DNA from: Pyrinomonadaceae bacterium | GTDB taxonomy: Bacteria > Acidobacteriota > Blastocatellia > Pyrinomonadales > Pyrinomonadaceae | Reading direction: 5' to 3' | NCBI GenBank assembly: GCA_014534425.1 | Contig: JACVRN010000015.1 | Coordinates: 1-64,000, forward strand | Length of the DNA stretch: 64,000 nucleotides | Shown here: one piece after another, positions 35,814-58,973 of the stretch | Layout: each line of letters opens with the position of its first letter | Position numbering within the stretch: the first letter of the stretch is position 1 | Notes under the pieces: generated by a model | Told to the model about the DNA's origin: nothing | Database searches by the model: none | What the model saw: the letters and a program-made list of their open reading frames with translations, nothing else | Program-made: the position numbers and the translations under genes

Positions 35814-35928
35814 CTTCGAAAGCTTCCGTCTCTCAGAGTAAATTCGGCAACAGTATAAACAAAATCGGTTTGCCGGGAAATTCTTTGCCGCAAGAGTAGC
35901 GGTTCAGTTTGAATCTTCTTTCTAAATA

Positions 35929-35972
35929 CAGATGTTCCCGAGCCGAGCAGGAGCAGGGATCGGGAACATCTG
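35929..35972 (-). terminator. Possible terminator/attenuator hairpin after the radical SAM-WD40 genes
   Basis: Perfect 13-bp arms CAGATGTTCCCGA / TCGGGAACATCTG separated by 18 nt. Confidence 0.45.
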
Positions 35973-36020
35973 TGCGTTTAAGTTTTAATGAAGAACGAGG
36001 TCTTTACAGTCAGGCCATTC

Positions 36021-37067
36021 TTACATGCAGTTGCAGGTGCAGACTTCGCCGGGGCCTGGGCGGGTGCCGCAGGGAACCGTTCGGGTGCTGCTGCTTCCTC
36101 TGGAGCGTACCCTGTAGCCGCCCCCGCCTCTGCTACTGCTGCTGCTGCCGTAGCTGCGGCTTCTTCTGCGGCGGCGACGCCTGCGGCGTGTCTGAGCCAG
36201 ATTGAGGAAGAGAAGCTTTCCGTTGCTGAAGCCTGCGGTCAATAGCTGGCCGTCGGGCGACAGCGCCACGGCCTGAAGCGTGGCCTTTGATATTTCGCCA
36301 GTGGATTTGGCTTCGTTCTCCTTAATCATGTCGGACAATTCATCGGCAGCTATGCTGTCAACTGAGCCGTTGTTCCAGACGGTGATGGCTCCCTCGCTTG
36401 AGACTGCGGCGAGGGTCTTCCCGTTCGAGGTCATAGCCAGAAGCTCAACGTCACCGGCCTCAAGCTTTCTCTCGGCGAGCGTCCTGTCCTCTGACAGCGA
36501 CCACATGTAAATATCTTTCCCTGCGGCGCAGGCCAGATTACTGCCGTCGGGCGTGACGGTGATAGCGCTCACGGGTCGGCTCCCAAGCTTGCTTCGCAAT
36601 CCGGCAGGCAGGCTTCCTTCGCTGAGCGCGAGCATCATGAAATGGTCGGCATTGGACTTTTGCCCGTGGCCGCCTTCCTTGAAGGCGTGGGCGTTGTTCA
36701 GGCTCTTGTCCACGCTCCTGGTGCTCAGGAGTTCTGCGTCGGGCAGAGACCAGAGCGAGATTGTGTCGGAGTCAGAGATGGAGACAAGGTTCTTGCCGTC
36801 GGGCGTGATGCCCAGAGACATGACGCCCTCTCCGGCTGTCTTGAGCGAGGCGTTGATGGATTTCAGAAACGGCATAGCGGAAGTCCGCTCGTAACCAATA
36901 GAGACGAACAGAGCCGCAGCAGCCGCGCTGATGCCCGCCCCTAAAAAGCCACGGCGGTTAAAGTGCGCGTCCTGTTGTGTGTCGTTCACCGAAACTATTT
37001 CCGGCGACTCACCCGCATCTCTTTCAGAGACGCGACTGAGCTTGAATTGCGGTTTCTCTGAGTTCAT
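36021..37067 (-). CDS. Tat-signal WD40-repeat protein with C-terminal Arg9/Ser/Gly-rich tail ending VCTCNCM; candidate modified-peptide precursor
   Basis: NRRGFLGAGISAAAAALF Tat-like motif; about four WD40-like repeats; tail RRRRRRRRRSRSYGSSSSSRGGGGYRVRSRGSSSTRTVPCGTRPGPGEVCTCNCM, checked by reverse-complement translation. Confidence 0.85.
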   Translation of the reverse strand: MNSEKPQFKLSRVSERDAGESPEIVSVNDTQQDAHFNRRGFLGAGISAAAAALFVSIGYERTSAMPFLKSINASLKTAGEGVMSLGITPDGKNLVSISDSDTISLWSLPDAELLSTRSVDKSLNNAHAFKEGGHGQKSNADHFMMLALSEGSLPAGLRSKLGSRPVSAITVTPDGSNLACAAGKDIYMWSLSEDRTLAERKLEAGDVELLAMTSNGKTLAAVSSEGAITVWNNGSVDSIAADELSDMIKENEAKSTGEISKATLQAVALSPDGQLLTAGFSNGKLLFLNLAQTRRRRRRRRRSRSYGSSSSSRGGGGYRVRSRGSSSTRTVPCGTRPGPGEVCTCNCM

Positions 37068-37108
37068 AGCAGGCTCTCCTTAGACTGGTTCTTGGGGCTA
37101 ATGAAATT

Positions 37109-38479
37109 TCACGGGGCAGACCAGAAGACGCCCCCGGACTCGCTGATTTTGGCGAGTATTTGGTCTTTGGTTAATTCACGTATGATGTGGCAACGGTCGG
37201 AGCCAGCAAACTCTCCAGGCCCGTTGACCGTCAGCGATTTGTGATAACAATCGCCCGCGCATGTCCACTTGGCAAAGCAGCCCTGACAATATTCACGGTG
37301 CTGGACGGCTTGATTCCGCAGATTATTCAGGACGGGCAGGTTGAATCTATACCCCCTGGTTTGAGAGTCGGGCTGACCGTAAAAGAAGGTCTTGGCCCAG
37401 GTGTTGTCTTCCGAGAACACTTCGTAGCAGGCCGAAACGTTTCCGTCCGGGCTGAGCGCAAAGCTGTCCTTGGTGATGCCGCAGAAATGGTTCGTCAAGG
37501 TTCCAAGGCGCGCTGCCGAGAAATAAAGTTCGTGGCCGTGGGCATGAGCGCGCTCCTGAGCGGCGCGGAAAGCCGTGATGAATTCCTCCGTGTCGGCAGA
37601 AGGCGCATGCTCCCAACGCCCAATCTGATACGCTGGCTCGGCCTGTATCTTCGAGGGATGAAAGTTCGAGCAGATGAACTCTATGGCTGCGGGCAACGAA
37701 GGTATCTGCTCCAGTGTCACCGTCACACGCAGGCCGTAACGAAATCCCGCCTCGTCGAATCTGCGTATGGTGTGCATGACCCGCTCGCTTGAGCTTTGGC
37801 CCAAAACGGTTGGACGGTTCCTGTCGTGCGCTTCCGGCAGTCCGTCGAAAGAGATGGTGGCACCGTTCAGGTTACTCGTAATCCAATCTATCTGCGCGTC
37901 CGTCAACACTCCGTTGCTGCCCGTGAAAGCCTGCACCTTCAGACCCAACTCCGCAGCCTTTTGTCGCGCGTAATCCAGCGATTCGGTCATGACGCGCCAG
38001 TTGACCGTAGGTTCTCCGCCGCCGTGATAGGTGATTGAGATAGAGTCCTCTTTTCGCTTCAAGGCGTTCGCTGCTATGAAGTCTATGCCGCGCTTGGCTA
38101 TCTCGACGTTCATGACTTTCGTGGGCGTGTCGCCAGCCGAAGCATAGCAGTAAGTGCAGCGAAGATTACAGGCCGTGGTCAAAAAGAGCGTGGCCGACGT
38201 TGGCTCAGGGTTGCCACTGAAAGATGTTATGGGCAGAGTTTCAGAGCCTGCGTCCAGAATCTTCAGTTGCCGCAGAAACTCCACAAGCGAATTGTCCGGG
38301 TCTGCGCTTTCATCAAACACGCCCTCTTGCAGGTCTGCCAGAAAGTTGACGACTCTGGAATTAGCCACAAAGGCTGCGCGACGCAAAGGGGCGTAAACGA
38401 TGTAACGGTCTGTCTCAAGCGGGATGACGAAAATCTCTGCGGAGACAACCGGTGTATCTTTGGAGTGTAGCATCGCCAT
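37109..38479 (-). CDS. Radical SAM/SPASM domain protein, peptide-maturase-like
   Basis: TTACNLRCTYCYA (CxxxCxxC); SPASM-type cysteines CGITKDSFALSPDGNVSACYEVF...YCQGCFAKWTCAGDC. Confidence 0.92.
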   Translation of the reverse strand: MAMLHSKDTPVVSAEIFVIPLETDRYIVYAPLRRAAFVANSRVVNFLADLQEGVFDESADPDNSLVEFLRQLKILDAGSETLPITSFSGNPEPTSATLFLTTACNLRCTYCYASAGDTPTKVMNVEIAKRGIDFIAANALKRKEDSISITYHGGGEPTVNWRVMTESLDYARQKAAELGLKVQAFTGSNGVLTDAQIDWITSNLNGATISFDGLPEAHDRNRPTVLGQSSSERVMHTIRRFDEAGFRYGLRVTVTLEQIPSLPAAIEFICSNFHPSKIQAEPAYQIGRWEHAPSADTEEFITAFRAAQERAHAHGHELYFSAARLGTLTNHFCGITKDSFALSPDGNVSACYEVFSEDNTWAKTFFYGQPDSQTRGYRFNLPVLNNLRNQAVQHREYCQGCFAKWTCAGDCYHKSLTVNGPGEFAGSDRCHIIRELTKDQILAKISESGGVFWSAP

Positions 38480-39032: not shown

Positions 39033-42000
39033 ATGAAAATCTTTCTTGCTGAAGAGCGCGACGGAAAGGCGCATGGCGAGCACGGCTTCGAGCGTTCAGT
39101 CATCAAGGTCGGGCGCGACAAGAAGGACTGTCAGATTATTTTCGATGATGCCAAGTGGCCTATGGTCTCGCGCCGCCACGCGGAGATACGCCTGGAGAAG
39201 GGGCGCTACCTGCTCGTCGACAACAACTCTACGCAGGGCACATACGTCGACGGAAAAATCATCAAGCAGCCCGTGGAGCTAAAGGCAGGGGCGCGCATAC
39301 AGTTCGGCCCGAACGGCCCCAAACTCTGTGTCGTCAGAATAGAACAGCCCGTAGTCTCCACCGCGCCGTCACCGCCCCAGCCTCAACAGCCGCAGCCACA
39401 GCCGCCCGCAGCTAAAGCGCAGCCGCAACCGAAACCGCAGCCACAACAACCTGCTGTAGCGCAGCAACCGCCGAAAGTTGCTCCACAGCCTCCCGCGCCT
39501 CAACAGCCGCCGCAACAGCAACGACCGCAGCAACCTCAGCCACAAGCACCGCAGCCGCAGGCGCAGGTGCCGCAGCCGGTGCAGCCGCAGCCTGCGCCGA
39601 AAGCCCCGGCTCAAAAAACGCCCGCTCCGAAAACGCCCGCGCAGGTTTCTCAGCTTCCGTCCATCGAATGGATTAACGATGTGACGGGACAGCTACAGCG
39701 CTTTCAAATCAGCACAGACCTGACGCGCATAGGCCGAGACCTCAACATGGATGTCAGGTTCGAGGGCAGCGCGGCGGTCGTCTCAAGGCAGCATGCCGAG
39801 ATTAAGCGCAACAACGGCCAGTTCGTGCTCATAGATAAGGGAAGCTTCAACGGCACCTATCACAACAGCAAGCGCATCACTGCGGAGACGCCCTTGCGCG
39901 ACGGCGACCGCATACAGCTTGGCATAGGCGGCCCCATCTGTCTCTTCAGAGACCCCGCGCACCCTGCAACGCATCCCGCGCCGACTCCTGCTCCTGCACA
40001 GCAAGCCGCCGCGCCTCCTGCGGGACAGCAGCAGCCTACAATCCTTGCGCCGACCTCTTCGCCCGCGATACAGCAGCCCGCGAGCGGAGGCGTGCACCTA
40101 GACCTCATAGACGAAGAGAGCTTCGACAGAAAGCCACAGATACAGGTGGGCCGCGCTCCCGGCAATGACATACAGCTCGAAGGGCTTCAAATCTCCAACC
40201 GCCACGCGCGCATCTCGCGCGAAAGCCTGGGCGTCTTCATAGAAGATTTAGGCTCTACCAACGGCGTCTATGTCAACGGCACGCGCATCACTACAAAGGT
40301 GCAGCTAAACCCTGACGCGGTGGTACAGATTGGCCCCTTTCTCTTCCAGATAGATTCGCAGCGCGTGGCCGTCTACGACACGCGCGCCAAAACTAGAATA
40401 GACGTGAAAGGCGTCACCAAGGTTGTGCGTAATCGTTCGGGCGCAGGCACCATCAAGCTGCTGGACGATATAGACCTCGTCATACAGCCTAACGAGTTCG
40501 TAGGCTTGCTCGGCCCTTCGGGCGCTGGCAAATCCACTCTCATGGACGCCTTGAATGGCATGCGCCCCGCGACCTCCGGCAACGTGCTGGTCAATAACCT
40601 AGACCTCTATCAGCACTTCGACTCGCATAAGCAATCCATAGGCTACGTGCCGCAGGACGACATCATTCACAGAGAATTGACCGTCTACCGCACCCTTTAT
40701 TACGTGGCCTATCTCAGACTGTCGCGCGACGTGACCGAGCCTGAGATTGATATGCTCGTCGGCCAGGTCATGGATGTCACAGGGTTATCAGAAAGAAGAG
40801 ACGTGCCCGTCGGGCAACTCTCAGGCGGTCAAAGAAAGAGAGTCTCCATCGCCGTAGAGTTGATAACAAAGCCATCGGTTATCTTCCTCGACGAGCCGAC
40901 TTCTGGATTAGACCCGGCGACGGAAGAGAAGATAATGAAGCTCTTCCGGCAGATAGCTGAAAGCGGGAGAACGGTAATCCTGACGACTCACGCGATGGAG
41001 AACGTCAGGCTCTTTGACAAAATCGTGGTTCTGATGAGGGGGAAGTTAGTCTGGTACGGTGCGCCGCACGAAGCCCTGCAACACGTCAAGGCTAGCAGCT
41101 TCAAAGACCTCTACGACAAGCTTGAGGCTCAAATCGCGGACGAGATAAATAGGCTTCCGCCGCTCCCCGCGAACGCCGCGCCTCAACAGCTACAGGCTCG
41201 CAAACAAGAGAAGGAGCAGATTGCCGAAAAGGTAGCCGAAGGCTGGAAGGCTCGTTTTAAGCAGACGGAGCAGTACAAGCGTTTAATACAGCAACCACTG
41301 GCGCAGGTGACTACGCAGTCGGCAAGCGCAGTAGTCACAGCGCCGCGCCGTCACACCGTCACCGACCGCATCTGGCAATGGAAGACTCTAGCCCAGCGTT
41401 ACTACGAAGTGCTGAGCCGAGACAAGCTGAACCTGCTGATTCTCTTCGGGCAGGCTCCCATTATAGCTATCCTGACCGCATTGGTGGTCGGCGCGAAAAG
41501 CCCGCGCGACTTTCCATACTTTATGCTCGCGCTCGTGGCTATCTGGTTCGGCACCTCAATCGCCGCACGTGAAATCATACGCGAGCGCGCCATCTACAAC
41601 CGCGAAAGGATGGTCAACCTCGGCATACTCCCCTACATAGGCTCAAAGCTTCTGGTGCTCTCTGTCATAGTCGGCGTGCAATGCGTGTTGCTCTTCCTCA
41701 TGCTCAAGCTCTTCGGCCTGGTAGGGTGGATGAAGATGCCGGGAGAGTTTTACGGGCTGCCCCAGCTTGCGTTGATGATACTGACGGGAATGGTGGGCAT
41801 CGCTATCGGGCTGTTCATCTCCGCGCTGGTGAAAACAAGTGAGATGGCTACGAGCCTAGTGCCTCTGATTCTGATTCCGCAGATTCTCTTCTCTGGACTG
41901 GTCGGCGTGCCCAAGGGAGTCTCGAAGTATGTAGGCGTATTGATGCCCGCGACCTGGTCTTTCGACGGGATGAAGAGGCTCTCTGCCCTGGATGTGCTGC

Positions 42001-42419
42001 GCGGCAAAGACGAAGGCGCGCAACCTTCTGCCAAGAATGAAGGGCGCGGTCTATACAAAAACGTGGAGCATCAGAACAAGCAGACAGTCAGGGAAGCGCA
42101 GGACGAGATTGATAATCACCAGACAAACGTGGAGCAGCAGATACAGGACTTCAAGAAGCGCATGGAAGAGTACCAGACCGAGATGGTCAAATATAGAAAT
42201 AAGCTGCGCGCGGACGAGCCTGTGAAGCCTGTTGACCCCGCCACGGAAAAGCCCAAGAAGCTTTCAGAGCCAGCGCCCATCCCGGACGACATGAGCGACT
42301 ACGTGGACTTTCTGCACCCCTGGGGAAGCGTGCGACTCGACGCCGCTCTCCTTCTGGTTATGTTTATAGGCTTCGTCGGCGGCACTGCGGCAGTGCTGCG
42401 CTCGCAGGACATCTGCTGA
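39033..42419 (+). CDS. Triple-FHA ABC transporter (ATPase plus ABC-2 permease)
   Basis: Three FHA cores (VSRRHAEIRLEKGRYLLVDNNSTQGTYVDG; VSRQHAEIKRNNGQFVLIDKGSFNGTYHNS; ISNRHARISRESLGVFIEDLGSTNGVYVNG), Pro/Gln-rich linker, GPSGAGKST, LSGGQRKRVSIAVEL, C-terminal TMs. Confidence 0.93.
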   Translation: MKIFLAEERDGKAHGEHGFERSVIKVGRDKKDCQIIFDDAKWPMVSRRHAEIRLEKGRYLLVDNNSTQGTYVDGKIIKQPVELKAGARIQFGPNGPKLCVVRIEQPVVSTAPSPPQPQQPQPQPPAAKAQPQPKPQPQQPAVAQQPPKVAPQPPAPQQPPQQQRPQQPQPQAPQPQAQVPQPVQPQPAPKAPAQKTPAPKTPAQVSQLPSIEWINDVTGQLQRFQISTDLTRIGRDLNMDVRFEGSAAVVSRQHAEIKRNNGQFVLIDKGSFNGTYHNSKRITAETPLRDGDRIQLGIGGPICLFRDPAHPATHPAPTPAPAQQAAAPPAGQQQPTILAPTSSPAIQQPASGGVHLDLIDEESFDRKPQIQVGRAPGNDIQLEGLQISNRHARISRESLGVFIEDLGSTNGVYVNGTRITTKVQLNPDAVVQIGPFLFQIDSQRVAVYDTRAKTRIDVKGVTKVVRNRSGAGTIKLLDDIDLVIQPNEFVGLLGPSGAGKSTLMDALNGMRPATSGNVLVNNLDLYQHFDSHKQSIGYVPQDDIIHRELTVYRTLYYVAYLRLSRDVTEPEIDMLVGQVMDVTGLSERRDVPVGQLSGGQRKRVSIAVELITKPSVIFLDEPTSGLDPATEEKIMKLFRQIAESGRTVILTTHAMENVRLFDKIVVLMRGKLVWYGAPHEALQHVKASSFKDLYDKLEAQIADEINRLPPLPANAAPQQLQARKQEKEQIAEKVAEGWKARFKQTEQYKRLIQQPLAQVTTQSASAVVTAPRRHTVTDRIWQWKTLAQRYYEVLSRDKLNLLILFGQAPIIAILTALVVGAKSPRDFPYFMLALVAIWFGTSIAAREIIRERAIYNRERMVNLGILPYIGSKLLVLSVIVGVQCVLLFLMLKLFGLVGWMKMPGEFYGLPQLALMILTGMVGIAIGLFISALVKTSEMATSLVPLILIPQILFSGLVGVPKGVSKYVGVLMPATWSFDGMKRLSALDVLRGKDEGAQPSAKNEGRGLYKNVEHQNKQTVREAQDEIDNHQTNVEQQIQDFKKRMEEYQTEMVKYRNKLRADEPVKPVDPATEKPKKLSEPAPIPDDMSDYVDFLHPWGSVRLDAALLLVMFIGFVGGTAAVLRSQDIC

Positions 42420-47509: not shown

Positions 47510-49699
47510 CTATTTATTGCTCCACATCTTGACCGTCTTATCTGCGCCGCCCGATGCGATTATTTTGCCGTCCGGCGAGACGGCGACCGAGTAAACTGCG
47601 CCTGTGTTCTGCGTCAACGCGCGCTTTGCAGCCCCGCCGTCGACGGCATCCCAGAGGTGAACAACGGTGTCGTTGCCGCCGCTTATCACAGTCCTTCCGT
47701 CGGGCGAGAAGGCCACGGCGTTGACTTCCGCTTTTGGCCCGCGAAGGGTCTTGTCCTGCGCGCCCGTCTCAGTTTTCCAGAGCACTACGGTAGCGTCGGC
47801 GGTTCCGCCCGCGAGCAGTTTGCCGTCGGGCGAAAAGGCCAGGGCCAGAACAGCGCCGCTTCGGCTTATATCCCGCTTGGCGCTCCCGCTCGCAACGTCC
47901 CAACGCTTGATGGTGCCCTTGTCCGTAGCAGCCGCCACGGTTCCGTCCGAAGAAGCTGCGACCGCTTTGACGGGGCCGTCCAGAGGGACGGAGCGTTGCG
48001 GCGCTCCTGCGGTGGATTGAGCGTCCCAGAATTTCGCCGTGCCGTCTTCTGCGCCGCTCAGGATTGTCCTGTTATCCGAAGCGAAGGCGACCGCGTTGAC
48101 GCGTCCCAGATGGCCGCGCAAGGTTTTGCGCTCTCCCGTCGCCACCTTCCAGAGAATCAGGTTATTGTCGGCAGTGCCCGCCACAAGCATGGTGCCGTCC
48201 GGCGAGAAGGCTATGGAAGTAATCTCGCCCGGCGAAGACTCGCTGGCTTTCGGCAACTCCATCTTGACGGCGTCGCCCGTGGCATCCCACAGCTTTATCT
48301 TCCCGCCCTTGGTGGCTCCGGCTATGGTGCCGTCCGGCGCGAAGGCCACGGCGGTTACTTCATCTGCTCCTGACAGGGATTTGAGATACGTGATGCCGCT
48401 ATAGTTGATGGCCTTCGCGCCTGAGCCGAAGAAGTACCAGCCGCCTACGCCTAGCAGCGCGAGCAGCAGCACCGCGCCAATCAGCATGAATATGAGCCGC
48501 GACGATTGACCGCTCCTGGTTGCGGTCGGCGTAGGCGAGTATGCAGGCGCGCTTCCGGTTCCGCTTCCGGTCGGGGGAGAGACGACCGGCTTCGCGGGAG
48601 GCTGAGCAGGCAGCCCGCCGCTCGGCAGCGTCTTGACAGGCGGCGGCTGAGGCTGAGTTACAAGACTGGGATTGTATATCTCTTCGTCCACGGCGGCGGG
48701 CGTTTGCTGAGCGGGCGGAGTCGAAGCCACCGCAGGAGAAGGCCCAGGCACAATCGGAGCCTGATTCTCAGGCGGTTGAGACGGCGGAGGCTGAACAGAG
48801 GTCTTTTTCTTCTCCGTCTGTTCGGGGACGACAGCCATGGGCGGCGCGGTTACGACTGGCTGCGCGTTGCTATCGTCATCGTCGTCTACAAACTTAATCC
48901 CTGGCTGCGAAATTGGCGGCGGCTCAACAGGAATGCTTCTGCCCGTGGACGGAATCTGGCCCGCCAGCAGAGCGTCCCAGTTGTCCGGCTGCCAAACGAC
49001 GCGCGCTGCCGCCGGTTTGGGCGCTTCCTTCGGAGGCTTCTTCGACCTGCCCGGCTTCTTTGCGCTCACAGGCGGCGCAGGAGCTATGTGCGCGTGAACG
49101 GAGATGCGTCTTACAAGCCGCGTGGTCGTCAGAAGGAAGCTGCCGTTGAGCAGCGTGTCCTGTGGCAGACGCTCAACGTGCAGGCGCACCTCGTTCGGGC
49201 CTTTCGTGAGCTTCGTAGGCTGCACCATGAGGCCGGAGACGCTGGATGAAAAGCGGCAATCCACGGGCACGTAGATTCTCAGTATAAGGTCGTGCTCGCT
49301 GCCAAAATCCAGGGAGCCTAGATGCAGCGAAGAAGGATAAAGCCAAGCGCCCTCTTCGTCGCACAGCCCTATGACGGAGCCGCGCACCTCCACGTTCTCA
49401 AGCTGAATCGTGCGGTTCGGCTCGACAGACAAAGCGCACTCGCCCTCTATGCGCGTGGAAGTGTCCCCGCCCGTGACTTCTATCTTCAGGTTACGCAGGA
49501 CTACGCCGTCGGAGAGAACGTTTATGACCGCGCCGTGACGCGCCCACACGGTTGCTCCCTGCCCGTCCAGGGTCATAGGGTGTTTGATTTCAATCGGCCC
49601 CGGGTACTCCTGCGGCGGCAGCTTCAGCGTCACGCCGTCGCGCAGTGAATCCAGCTTAGCCTGTAATGCTGCTCTTTCCTGGTCGTATTGTGAAGACAT
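47510..49699 (-). CDS. Membrane-anchored protein with N-terminal beta-helix-like region and C-terminal WD40 repeats
   Basis: LKLPPQEYPGPIEIKHPMTLDGQGATVWARHGAVINVLSDGVVLRNLKIEV; Pro-rich linker; TM RLIFMLIGAVLLLALLGVGGWYF; multiple FSPDG...LWD repeats. Confidence 0.85.
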   Translation of the reverse strand: MSSQYDQERAALQAKLDSLRDGVTLKLPPQEYPGPIEIKHPMTLDGQGATVWARHGAVINVLSDGVVLRNLKIEVTGGDTSTRIEGECALSVEPNRTIQLENVEVRGSVIGLCDEEGAWLYPSSLHLGSLDFGSEHDLILRIYVPVDCRFSSSVSGLMVQPTKLTKGPNEVRLHVERLPQDTLLNGSFLLTTTRLVRRISVHAHIAPAPPVSAKKPGRSKKPPKEAPKPAAARVVWQPDNWDALLAGQIPSTGRSIPVEPPPISQPGIKFVDDDDDSNAQPVVTAPPMAVVPEQTEKKKTSVQPPPSQPPENQAPIVPGPSPAVASTPPAQQTPAAVDEEIYNPSLVTQPQPPPVKTLPSGGLPAQPPAKPVVSPPTGSGTGSAPAYSPTPTATRSGQSSRLIFMLIGAVLLLALLGVGGWYFFGSGAKAINYSGITYLKSLSGADEVTAVAFAPDGTIAGATKGGKIKLWDATGDAVKMELPKASESSPGEITSIAFSPDGTMLVAGTADNNLILWKVATGERKTLRGHLGRVNAVAFASDNRTILSGAEDGTAKFWDAQSTAGAPQRSVPLDGPVKAVAASSDGTVAAATDKGTIKRWDVASGSAKRDISRSGAVLALAFSPDGKLLAGGTADATVVLWKTETGAQDKTLRGPKAEVNAVAFSPDGRTVISGGNDTVVHLWDAVDGGAAKRALTQNTGAVYSVAVSPDGKIIASGGADKTVKMWSNK

Positions 49700-49737
49700 A
49701 AAAGTTAAAGCGCGAATAGCAAATCTTAAGACTTGAA

Positions 49738-51195
49738 CTAAAGCTGAAGCATCTGCACTTCAGCTATTCTTCCGTGCGCGTCTTGGGACAATCTAAGCTG
49801 TGCGCCGTCCTTGAGCACCACGGCCTGTCCCGCAGGGACGCGGTTGCCGCCGGGCGAAGTCAAAGAGGTCAAATTCTTGTTCACCAGAATCCACTGGCCC
49901 TGATAAAACTGGCAGTAAGCCTGCGGCGTGCGGTCTGCCTCTTCGCCCGGAAACATGTTGTCATAGACGTGCCACTTGAAAAAGTATATGCCGTCGTAAA
50001 TGACAATCTTCCCGTCCTGAAACCACTGGCCCGGACGACTCTCCTTGCGTAGCTTCAGGATGGGGACGGTGCCCGTTATGCGCGTGTTGCAGAACGGGCA
50101 TTTGACGTTGTTCGTGTCATACAGCACGAACCACTTGTGCGAGCAGGAACGATTCGGGCACGGGTAAATCATATCCCAGGTCTTAATCAGAGCGCGTTCC
50201 CAGTCGGAAGCCGCAGGACGGTCGTTGGGCGAATGCAGCCCCTTCACGAAAGCCTGCATGAAGAGGCTCTCTAAATGCGGCCCCAGAACGGAGCAGGGAA
50301 TCGTCAGGTCTTTGGGACGATTCGACATATCCTGAGGGTTCTCGACAAAGAGCGCCTTGGAACCCATGCTCAGTTGCTCGTCCTCTTCCGCAGAAGAGGT
50401 GCTGTTGACCTTCGGCCCTCGAAGCGGGTGACGCGAGAGCAGGTATTCGTATATCAAAACCGGCAGCGCGTGCTGATCTGTCCTCACGCTCGGCAGTATG
50501 CGCTTCGGGTCTGTCAAAGGCAGGTGCATCGTCCCCAAGACTTCCGGCGCGATGTAACCGGGCGTGCCCGCAACGTCGGGCGGGAACAGGTTGGGAACGA
50601 CCAGCGAATCTATGTCTATGACCACGCTCTGCCCGGATGACGGGTCAACCAGTATGTTGCGGCATGAGAGGTCGGAGTGCGCCAGTCCAGCCATGTGCAG
50701 GCGGCGTACGGCACGCGCCATCAGAATGCAGAGCTTGAAATAGTTTATCCACGCGCCTCGCTCTTCGTCGGGCAGCATCCCGCGCAGCTTGGGGCTTGTG
50801 AACCATCGCCCTTCCTTCTCGCGCCCCGAAAAGGGGCCTTTGGCGAAGAAGTAGTTGGAAGGATAGGTCGGCGCGACGATGCCGACTTGCGGCTTGACGA
50901 CGATGGCTGTGGGCCAGCAGAAGAGCTTCTTGAAGTATTCGGCAGCAGCCGGTGTAACGCCCTGCGCGCCGCCCTGCGAATGCGGAATCGTGGGGTTGTA
51001 CTTGGTCAGAATGTATTCGAGCCGGGCCATGCGCTGCGGGTCAAGCCCTGCGGACTCGTTGTGGAAGAACTGCACGACGTAAGACCTGTCGGGGCTGAAG
51101 TAAGTTTTCTTCATGCCGCCTGCGGGCGGGTCGTCCGAGTAGACGTAATCAATAACGCGCCCGTCCTTGAGCGTGGCCTTCTCGACCTTCATCAC
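49738..51195 (-). CDS. TerY-P-type protein kinase-like protein with zinc-ribbon
   Basis: MAGLAHSDLSCRNILVDPSSGQSVVIDIDSLVVPNLFPPDVAGTPGYIAPEVL; CPNRSCSHKWFVLYDTNNVKCPFCNTRI. Confidence 0.82.
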   Translation of the reverse strand: MMKVEKATLKDGRVIDYVYSDDPPAGGMKKTYFSPDRSYVVQFFHNESAGLDPQRMARLEYILTKYNPTIPHSQGGAQGVTPAAAEYFKKLFCWPTAIVVKPQVGIVAPTYPSNYFFAKGPFSGREKEGRWFTSPKLRGMLPDEERGAWINYFKLCILMARAVRRLHMAGLAHSDLSCRNILVDPSSGQSVVIDIDSLVVPNLFPPDVAGTPGYIAPEVLGTMHLPLTDPKRILPSVRTDQHALPVLIYEYLLSRHPLRGPKVNSTSSAEEDEQLSMGSKALFVENPQDMSNRPKDLTIPCSVLGPHLESLFMQAFVKGLHSPNDRPAASDWERALIKTWDMIYPCPNRSCSHKWFVLYDTNNVKCPFCNTRITGTVPILKLRKESRPGQWFQDGKIVIYDGIYFFKWHVYDNMFPGEEADRTPQAYCQFYQGQWILVNKNLTSLTSPGGNRVPAGQAVVLKDGAQLRLSQDAHGRIAEVQMLQL

Positions 51196-57068: not shown

Positions 57069-58973
57069 TTACGAAACTTTCCACAGGCGCACGGTGCCGT
57101 CCCAGCTACCGGAGGCCAGGCTTTCTCCGTCCAGCGAGAATTCTACGGCTGAGGTCACGTCGTCGCACATGCCAAGGACGCGCTTGTGTCCTGTCTCTAC
57201 TTCCCACACACAGACGGTCTTGTCATCGCTCCCGCAGGCCAGAAGTTTTCCGTCAGGCGAGAAGTGAACGGAGCGCACCACGCCGTCGCAAGAGCCTAGG
57301 ACGCGCATAGCATTTCTTTCCAGATTCCAGATGCGAACCTGCTGATCCCAACTGCCTGATGCTATGTAGAGACCATCGGGCGAAAAGGCCACAGACCAAA
57401 CGTCAGCGCTCTGTGTGTCCAGCGTGCGAGCTTCGGCGCTCTCTATGTCCCAGACCTGAATCGTTCGGTTGCCGCTCTCCGTGGCGAGACTGCGGCCATC
57501 GGGCGAGAACTGGACGGCCCAGACAACACAGTCGCTCGTGCCCAGAAGTTTGGGCTGGCCTGCGCCTGTTTCCCAAAGATGTATGCTGCCGTCGTTGCCG
57601 CCGGATGCTATGAGTCGCCCGTCAGGCGAGAAGTCCACCGAGCAGATTGCGTGTTCGTGCCTGCCCAGGATGGTCATGTGTCCAGATGGAACTTCCCACA
57701 ACCTGACTGTGTTGTCGCTGCTGCCGGAAACTATGCTTTTACCGTCGGGCGAGAACTTGACCGAAGAGACGTAAGAGAAACCGGACTCGTGAAAATCACA
57801 CTGGCCCAGGACAGTCACCTGTCCCGCGTGGCAGTCCCACAATCTAACTTTGTTGTCGTTGCTGCCCGAAGCTATGAAGCGGCCATCGGGCGAGAAGCTG
57901 ACCGAGCGCACGGAGCTTTCGCAATTTCCAAGCACGCCGTGGCGGCGATTCCTGACGGACGAACTGCTCTCGCGCGTCACAATCTCTTCGGTGTCAGCTT
58001 CAGAAGGGACGCCTGTTTGAGAGCTTCTGTCCGGGCCTGCTGTGACAAGCGGCTGGCTGTTGAGCAGGAGCAGGTAGTGCAGCGCTTCTCTGAGCGCCTG
58101 GCGCATCTCAAGCGCGTCCGCGAAGCGGTCTTCAGGACGCAACTGCATGGCGCGTGCCAGCACTTCTGAAACTTCCGGCGTGACCTGCGAGTTGACCTGG
58201 ATTGCGGGCGCAAGCGGGTCTGTCTGTCCCGCCCAGAGAAGAGTCGCGCGCGATGCGGACTCAATCGGGAACTGTCCTGTCAGCAGGTGATAGAGCGTAG
58301 CGCCCAGAGAGTACAAATCGCTTCTAGGGTCAGGCTCTTCGGCCAGAGCCTGTTCCGCTTTAATCGGATTGAGCTTCGACAGCAGGTTGAAAGATGCCAG
58401 GTCTGCTTTGACAACCTGTTCGAGCGGGGAATAGTTGGGCGAGTAGCCGAGTATGGGGGTGCCTGTGTTGAGGCTGGACATCTGCCCGGCCTTGCCGCGC
58501 GCCAGCCCGAAGTCCAGCAGCACAATCTCGCCTTCCGGCGTCAGCTTCAGGTTGGCGGGTTTGATGTCGCTATGGATGATTGGCTGCGGGCGGTTGTGCA
58601 GGTAGATGAGCGCGCCGAGCAGTATGTCTGCCCATCGCAGCACGTCGCGCGCAGGGAACGGAGTGTTCCTGCGCTCCATCATCTCTTCGGCCAGGCTCTT
58701 TCCGGCGAAGAACTCCATCACCAGAAATTGCCCGTCCTTCTGCGAGAAATGGTGCATCACCCTGGGAAGAGAAGGGTGGCGAAGATTAGCCAGCAGCTTT
58801 GCCTCGCGGTGAAAGGCGTCTCGCAATTCGGGAGCCTGAAGCGTGTTCTCTTTGACGGCGACCGTGCAACTGAGGTCACGGTCAATCGCCTCGTAGACTG
58901 CGCCCATACCACCTTTGCCCAGGAGTCGGACGATCCGGTAGCGGCCATTCAGAATGGTATCGGGTGCCAGCAT
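57069..58973 (-). CDS. Ser/Thr protein kinase fused to WD40 repeats
   Basis: LLGKGGMGAVYEAIDRDLSCTVAVKE, IIHSDIKPANLKLTPEGEIVLLDFGLARG, repeated FSPDGRFIASGSNDNKVRLWD. Confidence 0.93.
   Translation of the reverse strand: MLAPDTILNGRYRIVRLLGKGGMGAVYEAIDRDLSCTVAVKENTLQAPELRDAFHREAKLLANLRHPSLPRVMHHFSQKDGQFLVMEFFAGKSLAEEMMERRNTPFPARDVLRWADILLGALIYLHNRPQPIIHSDIKPANLKLTPEGEIVLLDFGLARGKAGQMSSLNTGTPILGYSPNYSPLEQVVKADLASFNLLSKLNPIKAEQALAEEPDPRSDLYSLGATLYHLLTGQFPIESASRATLLWAGQTDPLAPAIQVNSQVTPEVSEVLARAMQLRPEDRFADALEMRQALREALHYLLLLNSQPLVTAGPDRSSQTGVPSEADTEEIVTRESSSSVRNRRHGVLGNCESSVRSVSFSPDGRFIASGSNDNKVRLWDCHAGQVTVLGQCDFHESGFSYVSSVKFSPDGKSIVSGSSDNTVRLWEVPSGHMTILGRHEHAICSVDFSPDGRLIASGGNDGSIHLWETGAGQPKLLGTSDCVVWAVQFSPDGRSLATESGNRTIQVWDIESAEARTLDTQSADVWSVAFSPDGLYIASGSWDQQVRIWNLERNAMRVLGSCDGVVRSVHFSPDGKLLACGSDDKTVCVWEVETGHKRVLGMCDDVTSAVEFSLDGESLASGSWDGTVRLWKVS

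Follow-up and report, generated by a model that had tools for sequence, protein, structure and literature searches.

What would a radical SAM enzyme do beside the gene of a large, probably exported repeat protein that ends in a short cysteine motif? The question is raised by a same-strand gene pair in the window, the whole stretch of 64,000 nucleotides analysed here from a Pyrinomonadaceae bacterium, in which a gap of 41 nt separates the gene for a radical SAM/SPASM enzyme from that for a Tat-signal WD40 protein ending PCGTRPGPGEVCTCNCM. A previous sequence-only reading had proposed the pair as a candidate unusual RiPP-like system, with the propeller as an oversized leader or carrier and the tail as the modified core. 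Its two same-strand genes, 41 nt apart, are both present as open reading frames where it had placed them, and the unit and its enzyme comprise the following features.

37109 to 38479, minus strand: radical SAM/SPASM enzyme gene, predicted tail maturase (456 aa)
38255 to 38440, minus strand: N-terminal beta-beta-beta-alpha-alpha domain of the enzyme (about residues 14-75), putative RRE, from the secondary structure of the model
38147 to 38170, minus strand: CNLRCTYC, radical SAM [4Fe-4S] motif (residues 104-111), its three cysteines invariant in 15 homologues
37190 to 37483, minus strand: SPASM-type cysteines C333, C351, C398, C401, C407, C411 and C430, all invariant in the 15-homologue alignment
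36021 to 37067, minus strand: Tat-signal WD40 protein gene with cysteine tail, predicted substrate (348 aa)
35928 to 35973, minus strand: 17-nt inverted repeat 3′ of the tail gene, candidate terminator of the two-gene unit

The inverted repeat past the tail gene is, from its sequence, a likely transcription terminator; with this at one end and, upstream of the enzyme, a gene on the opposite strand, the pair has the look of a complete unit. At 39033 to 42419 on the plus strand, in divergent orientation to the enzyme gene, three FHA domains are fused to an ABC ATPase and an ABC-2 membrane domain. Two more WD40-repeat open reading frames in the window (47513 to 49759 and 57072 to 58973, both on the minus strand) have no cysteine tail.

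The enzyme matches the Pfam Radical_SAM domain (3.3e-11) and combines the CxxxCxxC motif with C-terminal auxiliary-cluster cysteines, the two marks of a SPASM enzyme that had been reported before, with the Pfam SPASM model itself scoring 13.7 against a cutoff of 21.5. The best NCBIfam models were those of PapB, nif11-peptide, QhpD and SCIFF maturases, headed by the PapB ranthipeptide maturases (NF047865, 134 bits against a cutoff of 340), with QhpD (TIGR03906) at 123.8 bits (7.5e-36) against 453 and the SCIFF maturases (TIGR03974) at 113.9 bits against 425. None of the NCBIfam curated cutoffs was reached, and membership in known radical SAM families was rejected because all models score under cutoff. 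A viral origin was likewise rejected, the best match among viral contigs being just 30% identical. The AlphaFold model of the enzyme (pLDDT 83) finds its best PDB fold in CteB (5wgg, TM 0.68/0.70), spanning nearly the full length, and CteB is the nearest solved relative both by sequence and by fold. In the model the N-terminal strands and helices follow the order of an RRE, making this domain a probable leader-binding RRE, an assignment that rests on the fold as the Pfam PqqD scan of the enzyme gave no match.

The partner protein is built from five segments.

36957 to 37067, minus strand: pre-Tat leader segment (residues 1-37), with PEIVSV at residues 22-27 (36987 to 37004), an element kept in 20 homologues
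36888 to 36962, minus strand: twin-arginine signal FNRRGFLGAG and hydrophobic stretch, RR invariant in 20 homologues
36192 to 36854, minus strand: WD40-like blades, passenger domain (Pfam WD40, PF00400, 42.6 bits, weak)
36075 to 36191, minus strand: Arg9/Ser/Gly low-complexity linker, lineage-specific
36024 to 36074, minus strand: tail PCGTRPGPGEVCTCNCM (residues 332-348), motif A, predicted modified core from homologue comparison

Both the Tat-like motif (NRRGFLGAG) and the WD40 repeats described previously are there, the latter by the weak PF00400 match, and all four tail cysteines do sit in PCG...VCTCNC. About 20 homologous proteins show the tail motif, as the conserved element (TYTL)PCGSPIPPGAVCTCNCVPG or something very near it, and CTCNxVCTCxPV usually comes after it as a second element. 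The cysteine motif of the earlier description is thus real, while the Arg/Ser/Gly linker that it had included is lineage-specific and was rejected as a functional part, being not conserved among homologues. The window tail is a shortened copy of the conserved element without the second cysteine block found in most relatives. The first block alone is kept in the window and its nearest relative, G019, and the second alone in G074, which has no intact motif A, so that no single block is universal.

A local frameshift as the origin of the tail was rejected, since the other frames 3′ hold no continuation and the nearest homologue, from another genus (G019, locus L023), ends ...IPPGMVCTCNCVRVR at the same place. 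A tail arisen by chance was rejected on its recurrence in about 20 homologues and its conservation, with identity in each compared pair of 59-91% for the tail against 30-45% for the propeller, the least conserved part of the protein. L019 has a duplicated tail and L021 one that has grown into CTCVGQ repeats, as is often seen in RiPP cores. Three homologues (G056, G049 and G041) continue past the tail with an S74 domain (PF13884, 6.7e-10 for G056) that begins SDxxxK, with a Ser-to-Lys spacing matching the dyad reported for MYRF self-cleavage (PMC3742440), and by analogy these tails may become C-terminal after self-cleavage. A further tail in G171 (C11, E 2.9e-4) was discarded as a false positive, a domain protein without a tail.

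Enzyme orthologues at 58-78% identity occur in a few Acidobacteriota genomes and in MAGs labelled Verrucomicrobiaceae, Nitrospirales, Planctomycetaceae and Bryobacterales, and each of these loci has close by, in the same orientation, a gene for a Tat-type WD40 protein with a PCGSPIPPGAVCTCNCVPG-type tail. One set of 396 Acidobacteriota genomes was searched with both the tail and the enzyme profile, and the matches listed gave the tail in eight, the enzyme in ten and both in eight (hypergeometric p ~3e-15). In the class of the window the tail was found, among the matches listed, in 5 of 162 genomes, all five enzyme-positive, and in its family the enzyme in 2 of 119. Searches starting from the tail gave, again among the matches listed, 2 of 199 Planctomycetota, 3 of 195 Verrucomicrobiota and 1 of 148 Nitrospirota genomes, and all six were enzyme-positive, with the genes close together in five and the tail of the sixth (G466) at a contig edge. 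No tail without an enzyme gene was therefore present among the matches listed for the 396, 199, 195 and 148 genomes of the four phyla, a search that scored up to a set number of first-pass candidates per genome and that rare enzyme-less tails could escape. The criterion that the enzyme and precursor of a RiPP be encoded together and co-inherited thus agrees with the genome surveys, and the strict pairing suggests that the enzyme modifies the tail before the protein is exported.

The pair is sporadic, in at least five bacterial phyla, and its gene order varies, with the enzyme first in most loci and the tail gene first in G087, G171 and G745. Transposase-like genes lie beside or between the pair in L022 (7358 to 8116), L023 (6198 to 7166) and L077 (8105 to 10422), the IS21 pair of L077 being annotated and the others recognised by eye. 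Together the patchy spread, the changes in gene order and these transposase-like genes suggest horizontal movement of the pair. Enzymes linked to tails cluster together in the tree, in which several forks are weak and branches long. G094 has no detectable tail gene, though its enzyme groups within this tail-linked clade, and a Tat-signal protein of another kind lies downstream of the enzyme (L045). No tail was found in the enzyme-positive genome G117 either, where a divergent enzyme homologue adjoins a large protein with, by eye, repeated formylglycine-generating-enzyme-type domains (L046, 9153 to 12707).

More distant radical SAM genes were seen on two plasmids. In Caballeronia sp. NK8 (L078, 6170 to 6769) a 30%-identical gene adjoins that of a small protein with twin arginines and CSCNKESGCACVGHERCVCIG, which may represent the arrangement in a more remote form. 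On the Edwardsiella tarda colicin plasmid (L079, 3989 to 8650) a 29%-identical gene is accompanied by an ABC transporter, an S8 peptidase and a 59-aa peptide that ends CCRGGGVSMGGGLGGGGRW, a locus that looks like a conventional RiPP cluster.

If the tail is the target, where is the leader? An element of the form P-E/Q-I/V-V/Y/F-x-V/I/L precedes the Tat arginines in 20 of 20 proteins at nearly constant spacing, the TIGR01409 Tat model scoring the window protein at 15.8 bits, slightly under its cutoff of 16.7. The partner, predicted to be exported, is usually a beta-propeller, and the predicted model of the window protein is poor (pLDDT 58), with about four blades, given which its propeller, as modelled, is reduced or incomplete. 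On plasmid NZ_CP128402.1 of Ca. Chlorohelix (Chloroflexota), beside an enzyme of 33% identity, one WD40 protein and a neighbouring protein without any Pfam domain have the leader, twin arginines and tail in common. With the same leader and tail placed around an unrelated domain, the propeller is a replaceable passenger, the constant parts being the leader, Tat signal and tail and the middle free to change. The propeller was therefore rejected as the leader, a function that, judged from the sequences, is better placed in the PEIVxV-type element before the twin arginines, which is separate from the propeller in all homologues. The sequence-only reading thus survives in part: the tail as target of the enzyme passed the test of co-occurrence, and the propeller as oversized leader failed.

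The pair is probably a RiPP-like maturation system, in which an RRE-containing enzyme would read a pre-Tat leader and modify a cysteine tail on a protein that Tat then exports. The basis for this lies in the gene pairing, the conservation of leader, Tat arginines and tail, the passenger swap and the CteB-like predicted fold. Against it count the two enzyme-positive genomes in which no tail was found, G094 and G117, the want of one cysteine block common to all tails and the poor model of the window's WD40 protein. The RRE of the enzyme would bind the short PEIVxV leader ahead of the Tat signal and the enzyme would modify the C-terminal tail in the cytoplasm, at PCG..PPG..CTCNC and in most relatives also at CTCNxVCTC. 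Modification would precede export, after which Tat would carry the folded, modified protein across and signal peptidase would cut off leader and signal together, leaving the propeller or other domain as a passenger presenting the modified tail outside the cytoplasm. CteB, PapB and QhpD all make thioethers, and by this analogy a Cys-based thioether crosslink is the favoured modification, at about even odds. The tail might function in metal binding, in redox reactions or in surface chemistry.

The spacing of the tail cysteines (CxC and CxxxC) also suits metal binding, which CxC-rich tails could achieve unmodified, and export would take the tail to where disulfides can form. The tail may then be an unmodified metal-binding or disulfide-bonded element with the enzyme working on another part of the protein, such as a propeller residue, but this is unlikely given how strictly the enzyme goes with the tail, that Ca. 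Chlorohelix swaps the passenger and retains the tail, and that the propeller is the least conserved part. A classical small RiPP, in which the tail would be cleaved away as a free peptide and the propeller would be just its carrier, is less likely again. The repeat-expanded and duplicated tails of L021 and L019 resemble RiPP cores, and the S74 domains of G056, G049 and G041, with an SDxxxK like the MYRF dyad (PMC3742440), may free the C-terminal side of the tail; however, S74 cleavage would keep the tail on the propeller, and in most loci, that of the window included, neither protease nor ABC exporter adjoins the pair. That the two genes are adjacent by chance, with an unrelated enzyme function and a tail of low-complexity drift, would fit the low-complexity linker and shortened tail of the window but is strongly contradicted by the cross-phylum co-occurrence, conserved motif and altered gene orders, and is very hard to credit.

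Five loci are larger. Besides extra radical SAM genes, those of G171, G087, G466, L021 and Ca. Chlorohelix encode a helper of about 140-160 aa without a Pfam match and a small protein that is PqqD-like or unassigned. Their tails end in (H/S/H-)YW(H/Y)P(N/T), an ending found in five of five loci with extra radical SAM genes against none of 12 single-enzyme loci (p 1.6e-4, a value that ignores kinship and concerns a pattern first noticed in the same data). A bolder and tentative extension of the maturation reading, on balance doubtful, is that of a protein-sized RiPP class with its leader before the Tat signal, in which the enzyme sitting at the RR would act as a proofreading chaperone that delays export until the tail is modified, signal peptidase would serve as leader protease and the extra radical SAM enzymes of the larger clusters would act on the terminal YW(H/Y)PN.

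Should the RiPP-like reading hold, radical SAM peptide chemistry would extend to large proteins that leave the cytoplasm, acting on their tails, and the dedicated protease and exporter of RiPPs would give way to signal peptidase and Tat. It would also offer a testable solution to a difficulty raised for the MNIO bufferins (PMC12452194), namely how a protein is kept from being exported too early when the enzyme that modifies it and its export signal both act at one N-terminus. As the passenger is swappable, leader and tail may together form a tag transferable to other proteins, and the motif offers a search handle for an unannotated family in at least five phyla. No description of the pair was found in a search of mostly open-access literature, and it is as a provisional novelty that the pair extends known radical SAM peptide and protein maturation.

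The closest known systems include QhpD and QhpC in maturation of the quinohemoprotein amine dehydrogenase gamma-subunit, where a related SPASM enzyme introduces crosslinks at cysteines of a protein subunit that is bound through its N-terminal leader, and the product is exported (PMC7876137). QhpC, however, is small, with its leader cut by QhpE and export through the ABC transporter QhpF, whereas the predicted substrate here bears a Tat signal and a large passenger and would be modified at its C-terminal end. The ranthipeptide and sactipeptide maturases CteB and PapB have an RRE, radical SAM and SPASM architecture like that predicted here but act on short peptides that have neither signal peptide nor folded domain. 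In proteusins (PoyA/PoyD) a large N-terminal protein-like region precedes a C-terminal region that is the target of radical SAM modification (PMC8326336); that leader region is nitrile-hydratase-like, in contrast to the large domain here, a passenger predicted to be exported and swapped between homologues. Among MNIO systems, bufferins have a signal peptide within the recognition region and a Cys-rich target (PMC12452194), while the ChrH subfamily (ChrH/Dyb-type) modifies a C-terminal motif on proteins >30 kDa, repeat proteins included (PMC12636315). These systems use multinuclear non-haem iron enzymes with Sec or lipoprotein export, and where a bufferin cluster would hold a DUF692 enzyme the partner gene here encodes a radical SAM enzyme. 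The coupling of a radical SAM enzyme to a predicted Tat substrate, which none of the QhpD/QhpC, bufferin and ChrH-type systems has, is what sets the present pair apart from them.
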